Assembly (NCBI GenBank): GCA_902782475.1
Contig: CACZNR010000060.1
Span: 1 to 18,817 of the forward strand
DNA from: an uncultured Eubacteriales bacterium
Lineage (GTDB): Bacteria > Bacillota > Clostridia > Christensenellales > Christensenellaceae
Reading direction: 5' to 3'
DNA length: 18,817 nt
This document shows, in pieces, positions 16,548 through 18,817 of this stretch (position 1 is the stretch's first letter; every line of letters starts with the position of its first letter). The notes under the pieces were generated by a model. The model worked only from the letters and a program-made list of their open reading frames with translations. It was not told where the DNA came from and searched no databases. The position numbers and the translations under genes are program-made.

Positions 16548-16552
16548 AGGAG
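16548..16552 (+). promoter_or_regulatory. Shine-Dalgarno supporting a TTG start for the TetM/NYN gene
   Basis: AGGAG is six bases before TTG 16559. From this TTG the protein begins QQVSLGIFAHVDAGKTT, the usual distance between N-terminus and P-loop in TetM-like proteins. No ATG or GTG offers a better start. Confidence 0.8.
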
Positions 16553-16558
16553 CATCAT

Positions 16559-18817
16559 TTGCAACAGGTAAGTCTTGGCATATTTGCCCACGTGGATGCA
16601 GGGAAGACCACGCTATGTGAGGCATTGCTTTATGAACAGGGAACCATAAGAAAGCTTGGAAGAGTGGATCACAGGGATTCACTTTTTGACAGTCATGAGC
16701 TTGAGCGGAGGAGAGGGATCACCATCTTTTCAAAGCAGGCAAGCTTTATCCTTGACGATGCCAGATATACGATACTTGATACACCGGGACACGTGGATTT
16801 TGTGTCTGAAGCAGAAAGGGTGCTTCCTGTAACAGACATCGCAGTATTCGTTGTCAGCGGCAAGGACGGTATCCAGGCTCACGGGGAGACTCTGTGGCGG
16901 CTCATAAAAAGCTACAGAAGACCTGCCGTCATTTTTGTAACGAAGATGGATCTGGCAAATTCCTCTGAAGAGGAGATCTTTTCTGATATCAGAAAGGACC
17001 TTGGAGACGAGCTGTTTACAATGGAAAACCATCAGGAAAGACTTTTCGTATCTCCGTCATGCTGTGAGGAAATAGCAACTGTGGATGAAAAAGTCCTCGA
17101 AAACTATCTTGAAAAGGGCACGATAGAACTTTCCTCATTGAAGGGATACTTCCTGCAGGGAAAGGCCGTTCCTGTCATATTCGGTTCCGGCCTGAAGCTT
17201 CAGGGCATAGATGAGCTTTTGAAGGTCGTCAGCATACTGAGACCTGACAGCAGTACAGGAGATACTTTTTCGGGAAGAGTCTTTAAGATATCCAGAGATG
17301 ATAGGAACAACAGGCTCACACATCTGAGGGTAACAGGCGGAAAGCTGTCGGTACGTGATGAGATCCGGTATACCGATACAAAAGGAAAAGAGTACAGTGA
17401 AAAGATAACGGGCATAAGAGAATACAACGGAGAAAGGTTCGTCCAGATAAGCGATGCTCCCCAGGGAAGCATAGTAGAAGTAACTGGTCTGACATCCACA
17501 TATGCAGGTCAGGGACTGGGAGAAGGAGAGGAATCCATACGGACAGTGTCAGAACCGGTCTTCGTTTACAGTATAGAACCTGAAGAACATGTGGACCTTA
17601 CGGTATTTTTGAGGCAGCTCCATGAACTGGAAGAGGAGGATCCGCTCCTTCGCTTCTCATATGATGAAGTCTATGATGCAGTTTTCGTTCAGCTCATGGG
17701 TGATGTGCAGATAGAGATCCTGCAGGAGCTCATAAGGAACAGGTTCAATGTGGAATGCAGCATAAAGGCAGGAAAGGTCCTGTATAAGGAGACCATAAGG
17801 GACAAGGTGGAAGGAATAGGCCATTATGAACCTATAAGACACTATGCTGAAGTCCATCTGATACTTGAAGGAAGCAGGATAAACAGTGGCATAAGCATCA
17901 GTTCCAGGTGTCCGACAGATGAACTGGACAAGAACTGGCAGTCCGACATAATAGATTATCTAGAAAACACCAGGCTTACCGGAGTACTGGGCAATTTTCC
18001 TGTAACAGATCTTAACATATATCTTATGGGAGGCAGAGTGAGCCTTTCCCATACAGACAGCAGTGACATAAGGGAAGCTACCCGCAGGGCTTTCAGACAG
18101 GGACTCATGAAAGCCGATTCCATGATACTGGAACCATATTATTACTATGAACTTAGACTTCCTACCGGTCAGGTCGGAAGAGCCATAACAGATATAAGGA
18201 ACATGAAGGGTGACTTTGAGATACTTGCTCTTAATGAAGAGGAGAGCCTGATACGCGGGTATTGCCCGGTCAGTGAGATGCAGGGATATTCAGCAAAAGT
18301 GATGTTCTATACTTCGGGAAAAGGAAGGCTCAGTACATCCTTTGACAGCTACAGGGAGGCCCATGACCCTGATGCTGTTCTTGAAGGCATAGGCTATGAT
18401 CCTGAAAGGGATACAGAGAATCCCGCAGATTCCATATTCTTCAAGCATGGGGCAGGATTCCATGTAAAATGGAATGAAGTTGAAAAATATATGCATATGG
18501 ATCGTTTCCTTGAGAAAAATGACGGAATGGTCATGGGAAAAGTCCACAGGCAGATCAGCCTTGACGAGCAGCAGGTCGAAGAGATACTGAACAGGGAATT
18601 AGGTGAAAAGAGAAGAAAACAGTACAGGTCTTCGGAATATAAGTACAGCAGTGTTATAAAGGGATATGACCCAAACAAGAAGCGATATGTCTTCATAGAT
18701 GGATACAATCTCCTTTTTGCAGATGAAGAACTCAAGACGGTGGCAAAGACCAACCTTGATGCGGCAAGGAACAGGCTCATAGACATGATGGCTGACTATG
18801 AGGCCTATACCGGGATA
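16559..18817 (+). CDS. TetM/EF-G-like ribosomal GTPase fused to a NYN (YacP/Rae1-like) nuclease domain, 3' end cut by the window
   Basis: The frame runs 753 codons from TTG 16559 to the window end without a stop, so it is partial. Residues 1 to about 595 have the layout of ribosomal protection proteins. P-loop AHVDAGKTT is at 10-18, RRGITI at 51-56, DTPGH at 74-78, and the guanine motif is TKMD (128-131) instead of NKxD. Beta-barrel and EF-G-like domains III-V follow, with GIGHYEPI at 419-426. The domain IV loop around residues 493-503 reads RVSLSHTDSSD and lacks the YSPVS tip I recall from TetM. Residues 600-708 are a charged linker. From about 709, YVFIDGYNLLF begins a NYN domain like YacP/Rae1, with Asp714 as the first expected metal-binding acid. 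Proteins of the TetM family displace ligands from the A-site region; Rae1 cleaves mRNA there. The combined role is inferred; tetracycline resistance is not supported. A terminator precedes it and it has its own -10 box. Confidence 0.85.
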   Translation, partial: MQQVSLGIFAHVDAGKTTLCEALLYEQGTIRKLGRVDHRDSLFDSHELERRRGITIFSKQASFILDDARYTILDTPGHVDFVSEAERVLPVTDIAVFVVSGKDGIQAHGETLWRLIKSYRRPAVIFVTKMDLANSSEEEIFSDIRKDLGDELFTMENHQERLFVSPSCCEEIATVDEKVLENYLEKGTIELSSLKGYFLQGKAVPVIFGSGLKLQGIDELLKVVSILRPDSSTGDTFSGRVFKISRDDRNNRLTHLRVTGGKLSVRDEIRYTDTKGKEYSEKITGIREYNGERFVQISDAPQGSIVEVTGLTSTYAGQGLGEGEESIRTVSEPVFVYSIEPEEHVDLTVFLRQLHELEEEDPLLRFSYDEVYDAVFVQLMGDVQIEILQELIRNRFNVECSIKAGKVLYKETIRDKVEGIGHYEPIRHYAEVHLILEGSRINSGISISSRCPTDELDKNWQSDIIDYLENTRLTGVLGNFPVTDLNIYLMGGRVSLSHTDSSDIREATRRAFRQGLMKADSMILEPYYYYELRLPTGQVGRAITDIRNMKGDFEILALNEEESLIRGYCPVSEMQGYSAKVMFYTSGKGRLSTSFDSYREAHDPDAVLEGIGYDPERDTENPADSIFFKHGAGFHVKWNEVEKYMHMDRFLEKNDGMVMGKVHRQISLDEQQVEEILNRELGEKRRKQYRSSEYKYSSVIKGYDPNKKRYVFIDGYNLLFADEELKTVAKTNLDAARNRLIDMMADYEAYTGI

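Follow-up and report, generated by a model that had tools for sequence, protein, structure and literature searches.

The window, the whole stretch of DNA analysed here, is 18,817 nucleotides of contig CACZNR010000060.1 from an uncultured Christensenellaceae bacterium, whose assembly is 1.38 Mb long, 85% complete and holds a single NYN_YacP match in all. Its last open frame (16559..18817, plus strand, as are all window features below) begins with TTG, stays open over 753 codons until the contig breaks off and forms the 5' part of a fused gene. The four genes just 5' of it encode a phosphoglucomutase, a SIS/amidotransferase protein, a PfkB kinase and a class II aldolase, which by their Pfam matches belong to ordinary metabolism. 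Between the aldolase gene and the fused frame stands a terminator-like hairpin, and a ribosome-binding site, AGGAG (16548..16552), lies 6 bases 5' of the TTG; both were read off the sequence.

Pfam placed a GTP_EFTU GTPase domain at residues 4-225 (16568..17233), in which the motifs AHVDAGKTT, RGITI, DTPGH and TKMD can be read off the translation. It is followed by EF-G domain II (EF-G_D2, residues 237-319, 17267..17515), domain III (EFG_III, residues 330-403, 17546..17767), domain IV (EFG_IV, residues 405-519, 17771..18115, also placed by alignment and by an EFG_IV match in the genome itself) and domain V (EFG_C, residues 523-602, 18125..18364). The GTPase domain and domains II-V thus stand in the order of the EF-G/Tet family, in agreement with the fold comparison described below. 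Behind domain V, alignment delimits a family-specific extension at about residues 603-652 (18365..18514) that ends in NPADSIFFKHGAGFHVKWNEVEKYMHM, and our extension profile A1 matches at 18308-18523. A linker follows at about residues 653-709 (18515..18685), a region of low confidence in the structural model of a same-genus relative, and then the start of a Rae1-like NYN_YacP domain at residues 711-752 (18689..18817), covering profile positions 1-43 of 166. The PF05991 search proposed in an earlier sequence-only reading was run; the window domain scored 34.9 bits on the protein against a cut-off of 24.6, and 40.9 bits at the same place in a whole-genome profile search. The first catalytic-type NYN aspartate, D714 (codon 18698-18700), is the sole NYN aspartate inside the window, and the remaining acidic positions fall beyond the contig end.

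Elsewhere in the assembly EFG_IV matches just once (L084, on contig G000:C124), in an EF-G-like protein with the P-loop GHGGDGKTTL. Judged by its sequence, this protein looks different from ordinary EF-G, and it carries a long insert in the GTPase domain that the fused family lacks. The main EF-G of the organism may lie in the missing 15% of the assembly.

Full-length relatives carry a complete Rae1-like domain

Because the window contig stops within the NYN domain, the integrity of the fusion was checked in relatives. A genome of the same genus (G001) encodes a full-length relative of 873 aa (L086:7179-9800), whose NYN_YacP match, like that of the window, exceeds the curated PF05991 cut-off, reaching 138.8 bits over profile positions 1-162. 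Scanning the species collection yielded 44 loci with a relative. Closed frames, 854-988 aa long, are present at 35 of them, and the remaining nine loci are cut by a contig end, unfused or distant. Among the carriers of the fused gene is a cultured commensal, Acetivibrio ethanolgignens (L038). The sequence-only reading had proposed a TetM/EF-G-like GTPase and a YacP/Rae1-type NYN domain in one chain, and this was confirmed by Pfam and by the closed frames of relatives: the frame continues well past FIDGYN, and one frame encodes both domains with no frameshift between them. The acidic residues beyond the window contig are likewise present in the relatives. D7, D53, D81 and D104 (5mq8 numbering) are invariant in all 47 complete fused rows, two of which are the same sequence, and in all 30 free NYN rows. 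These are the four acidic positions of Bacillus subtilis Rae1/YacP (PDB 5mq8/5mq9), a ribosome-associated A-site endoribonuclease, which the NYN domain of G001 matches with an E value of 1.8e-20.

AlphaFold2, run on the G001 protein with a 38-row alignment, gave a mean pLDDT of 80.6 and a pTM of 0.62. The model shows an EF-G-like body whose extension is fairly confident to about residue 655; residues 656-704 or so form a linker of low confidence, behind which lies a separate C-terminal domain. Foldseek and VIA-align comparisons with the PDB, which speak for the body alone, returned EF-G and its kin, with TetM at rank 45 in VIA-align. These proteins occupy the fold-match lists, so that the NYN domain is identified by sequence. 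Across 59 frames, in which some genes are counted twice, linkers measured 60-125 residues. Among 50 fused bodies, DTPGH is kept in 49 and HVD[AS]GKT in 42; of the eight bodies without the latter motif, seven come from loci truncated at the 5' side.

The GTPase body differs from tetracycline-protection proteins

The body had been called ribosomal-protection-type in the sequence-only reading, and this label found no support. On the tetracycline-protection equivalog NCBIfam NF012153, with a cut-off of 775 bits, the window protein scored 418 bits; three fused relatives (405, 422 and 417 bits) and two unfused relatives (379 and 454 bits) also fell short. Domain IV differs as well. In Tet(M), the tip of loop III is Ser508-Pro509-Val510, and Pro509 overlaps the drug, according to the consulted part of PMC7456112. 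Our alignments revealed no such tip in the window family: the loop is covered in 49 of 51 aligned rows, and the sole SPV among them (L004) precedes the tip. In its place stands a signature typical of the family, roughly HT..[GS]D[FLI][RK], found in 49/50 fused and 15/15 unfused bodies and absent in the single Tet(M) compared. Most relatives read GRAHxKHTEGGDFR at the tip, where Tet(M) and Tet(O) have GLYYSPVSTPADFR. The window carries the family signatures GHYEPIRHYAEVHL and HTDSSDIR, and by alignment its own loop, represented by the latter, is degenerate. The changed tip makes resistance unlikely only, because Tet(M) with loop III residues 508-510 all replaced by Ala can stay active, as stated in the part of PMC4750697 consulted. 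These results indicate that the GTPase body, by its sequence, is not a standard tetracycline-protection protein.

The fused family is about 29% identical to Tet(M)/Tet(O), from which it further differs by an added extension of some 50 residues after domain V, common to fused and unfused members. With EF-G it shares domain order, fold and GTPase motifs at about 20-28% identity in structural alignments, and differs from it by the extension and the NYN domain. Two conserved cysteines of the extension (in PCHN and SVFC), kept by most relatives, are missing in the window (18365-18514) and in one further locus (L050); as the window lineage lacks both, the idea of a zinc site in the extension was abandoned. 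An unfused member on a Ligilactobacillus salivarius plasmid (L090:2986-4920), near rpsN (S14), is annotated as tetracycline resistance and is the relative that scored 379 bits.

Fused and free Rae1 exclude each other almost completely

We compared the distribution of fused and free NYN domains in 196 genomes of the class, for which completeness of at least 90% was asked, the window's own genome at 85% being added. An NYN frame of at least 230 aa was counted as fused, contig-cut frames of 313-618 aa included, and a shorter one as free; two second matches below the cut-off (G211, G159) were left out. Results showed that NYN_YacP occurs in 133/196 genomes, 74 with a fused and 59 with a free form and none with both, where about 22 genomes with both would be expected if the two were independent, kinship ignored. 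All 74 fused frames also match the extension profile, and the 59 free frames measure 168-216 aa. The other 63 genomes have no NYN_YacP, so the function is dispensable. Counted by family, NYN_YacP is fused-only in 20, free-only in 20 and mixed in three of 43, which puts the fusion in 23 families; two genera (g54 and g110) hold both kinds. The remark in the sequence-only reading that similar long proteins occur in Lachnospiraceae was borne out, the fused form being common in this family and its kin.

Whether fused or free, the domain is nearly always present once per genome. In a sample of 393 genomes, 250 had NYN_YacP, and 245 of these had a single match, that of G297 being below the cut-off. 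The five genomes with more than one comprise three with a weak second match of 21 bits, one with a fused gene and a broken rae1 (G404) and one with a fused gene and an intact free rae1 (G320), the only such pair among them. An extension-bearing GTPase without a fused NYN was found in 11/196 genomes, six of which also have free Rae1. In a phylum-wide sample searched with the extension profile only, the extension occurred in 21/299 genomes, the window's included, and 18 of these matches lay in fused-size frames. A "split" form, with free rae1 beside the NYN-less GTPase gene, was looked for and rejected: no rae1 adjoined that gene at L036 or L044, and in two genomes the genes are on different contigs (G100) or more than 300 kb apart (G145).

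The home locus of the free gene was next to be considered, with genes named by Pfam and NCBIfam and mrnC by position. Where looked at, free Rae1 is a protein of about 170 aa encoded in an rlmB-rae1-sigH cluster, whereas the fused NYN is the C-terminal domain of a GTPase of about 870 aa at varied loci, usually without the EKLRR-type tail. In G091, a congener of three fused genomes (G159, G211 and G062), the order is cysS, an RNase III-domain gene, rlmB, rae1 and sigH. Of eight fused genomes examined, five (G159, G211, G334, G008 and G001) gave no rae1 match by tblastn at a locus that holds the mrnC-like gene, rlmB and sigH. In G062 a rae1-like relic with stops and frame changes remains (blastn, 71.6% over 587 columns spanning the gene and the stretch behind it), and in G404 rae1 is broken, residues 1-32 being read in one frame and 94-156 in another. 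The rae1 of G320 alone is intact, 58% identical to that of G091. Free rae1 is therefore absent (five), broken (two) or intact (one) at its home locus, that is, missing or broken in 7/8 fused genomes; such stages would be expected if the free gene became dispensable through the fused one. The fused protein most likely replaced free Rae1, which is well supported because the mutual exclusion is near complete and rae1 is missing or broken at its home locus.

Fused NYN domains form one clade and have mostly lost the Rae1 tail

A quick NYN tree of 90 rows, 55 of them fused, was built with SH-aLRT support and without bootstrap; the 340-aa frame L048 was counted as free, and L001, L050, L085 and identical rows were left out. 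Fused NYNs formed one clade (SH-aLRT 96) except for a single free row nested inside it, from G246. This genome (L079, L122) carries the free NYN and a separate GTPase of the unfused clade; from its position in the tree, the NYN is perhaps a liberated domain. A GTPase-body tree without outgroup separated 50 fused bodies and one Lactobacillus row from 15 unfused ones (SH-aLRT 100). The branch to the Tet(M) outgroup is 9.8 changes long, too long for placing the root or the direction of NYN gain or loss.

The B. subtilis Rae1 tail carries the motif EKLRR, and R166P is among the rae1 suppressor alleles judged to be loss-of-function in the portion of PMC6613710 consulted. The tails of 55 fused and 35 free closed frames were compared, and for the motif count 54 and 35 were used; scored by our own pattern, an EKLRR-type motif was present in 32/35 free and 10/54 fused domains, so that the Arg166-type tail is generally missing from the fused family; the tail of the window gene lies beyond the contig. 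The motif requires at least eight changes on the NYN tree. That the tail is mostly lost only in fused domains suggests dependence on the GTPase partner, and the GTPase may take over whatever the Rae1 tail does, a possible sign of coupling.

Fused genes lie at varied loci

Neighbour clustering covered 47 fused loci with flanks of varying length (48 were given, one of them without a recognised fused frame). No neighbour family recurred in more than four of the 47 as an operon partner, so the gene does not look like a travelling cassette. A mobile resistance element found no support either: there is no conserved mobile context, and only one fused gene is among the 40 plasmid matches listed of 1204. 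That record (L092, NZ_OY725736.1) is a 518-kb Monoglobus sequence called a plasmid, which carries secA and spore-coat genes beside the fused gene and may be a piece of chromosome. PADLOC gave no match to a defence system.

In G001, the end of the fused gene is overlapped by another gene (L086:9779-10525), whose product has a YlmH RNA-binding and an S4 domain. A role of YlmH in ribosome-associated quality control is reported in the section of PMC11317155 consulted. As a partner it was rejected, since the pairing was seen in G001 and in no other fused locus of the neighbour clustering. In G227 (L120, minus strand) the body of the fused gene is spread over two frames of 288 and 618 codons, by which the gene is broken or mis-assembled. 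Unannotated Listeria and Staphylococcus "phage" records match the NYN part alone, probably because they contain host DNA, and two faecal "Bacteriophage sp." records match over most of the query, a stretch that begins late in domain IV and runs to the NYN.

Discussion

It is probable that the fused gene is chromosomal and codes for a ribosome-directed mRNA endonuclease, a GTPase carrying a Rae1 domain on a flexible linker that replaced free Rae1. Delivery of an mRNA nuclease to ribosomes, as the sequence-only reading had envisaged, fits the replacement evidence; the GTP-driven docking and the cutting in the A site are inferred. EF-G-like factors place domain IV in the A site. There is no room in that site for such a domain IV and a Rae1 domain together, so that a sequential mechanism must be assumed. 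By analogy with its relatives EF-G and TetM, the GTPase would bind ribosomes with an empty or blocked A site; GTP would then be hydrolysed or domain IV withdrawn from the A site, upon which the tethered NYN could reach and cut the A-site mRNA, and the cut would start mRNA decay and ribosome rescue. Rae1 itself is described as an A-site mRNA endonuclease in the consulted parts of PMC6613710, PMC12320835 and PMC10100781. It is possible, though somewhat short of probable, that the protein is a single-chain, GTP-powered A-site nuclease, acting as a ribosome-rescue or mRNA-surveillance factor and as the standing Rae1 of 74/196 genomes, in which the GTPase recognises stalled ribosomes, the nucleotide cycle times the cut and the tail is dispensable. 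Several points count against the ribosome-directed endonuclease. The sequential order has to be assumed, G320 keeps both genes intact, the GTPase body occurs without an NYN in 11/196 genomes and so has its own task, perhaps an unrelated one, and the free NYN nested in the fused clade (G246) indicates that tethering is not obligatory. The co-occurrence count ignores kinship, with 20 families fused-only and 20 free-only, 63/196 genomes do without NYN_YacP, and the window itself has a degenerate domain-IV loop and only 43 NYN positions.

The NYN-less bodies and G246 also favour another reading, in which the two halves are uncoupled, the GTPase performing its own ribosome task as in its NYN-less relatives and the NYN doing the work of free Rae1 from a new gene address. 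The NYN-less members share the extension and the domain-IV signature, six of the eleven genomes with them have free Rae1, the linkers are long (60-125 residues), and the unfused NYN of G246 derives from the fused clade and coexists with a separate GTPase. We nevertheless regard this as rather unlikely, since mutating the tail motif disables the Rae1 of B. subtilis, yet the fused domains, unlike the free ones, have mostly lost it, and since the fusion is found in 23/43 families with NYN_YacP. Improbable, in our assessment, is the suggestion of Atkinson 2015 that a tetracycline-resistance protein acquired an RNase to resist the drug in a second way. The body is of the Tet family, with TetO and TetM as the best sequence matches among solved structures and tet_protect as the best NCBIfam match; an unfused relative is annotated TetM/TetW/TetO/TetS, and the active triple Ala mutants of Tet(M) (PMC4750697, the part consulted) leave room for a changed loop. 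The tet_protect match is below its cut-off, however, and all five relatives scored 379-454 bits against 775; the Ser508-Pro509-Val510 tip (PMC7456112, in part) is swapped for another conserved signature, the context is not mobile, with the 518-kb secA-bearing record as the one fused gene among the plasmid matches listed, and resistance genes do not spread by replacing a housekeeping gene. With free Rae1 apparently replaced, a routine role in RNA quality seems likelier than antibiotic resistance. Processing of rRNA or tRNA by the NYN, with the GTPase in ribosome assembly or maturation, has very little probability. It would agree with an early proposal for NYN domains (quoted in the consulted text of PMC4342817) and with the position of the free gene next to the rRNA methyltransferase gene rlmB and an RNase III-domain gene, but the closest characterised relative, Rae1, is described as cleaving A-site mRNA (PMC12320835, PMC6613710, both in part), and the acidic residues of the NYN match those of Rae1.

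The architecture is not new. In the part of Atkinson 2015 (PMC4342817) consulted, Tet proteins of ten species of Clostridiales are described as having acquired a YacP-like NYN, with RNase-based resistance suggested; by description these proteins have the same architecture, and they are presumably the same in sequence as the window clade. Beyond Atkinson 2015 we found no other description of the fused form among the open-licence papers listed by our searches, and no experimental one, in keeping with the sequence-only reading. As far as checked, what is new here is the distribution against free Rae1, the relics, the tail loss and the domain-IV signature; a 2018 paper on Rae1 distribution may cover the first of these.

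The fused family is at present filed as tetracycline resistance or "translation factor GTPase". If the ribosome-directed endonuclease is the right explanation, a gene filed under these names would be an mRNA-cutting quality-control enzyme of many gut bacteria, and resistance-gene annotations would be corrected. A single chain would then directly join a translational GTPase with an endonuclease that depends on the ribosome, and this would offer a clean system for asking how the state of the ribosome licenses mRNA cleavage.
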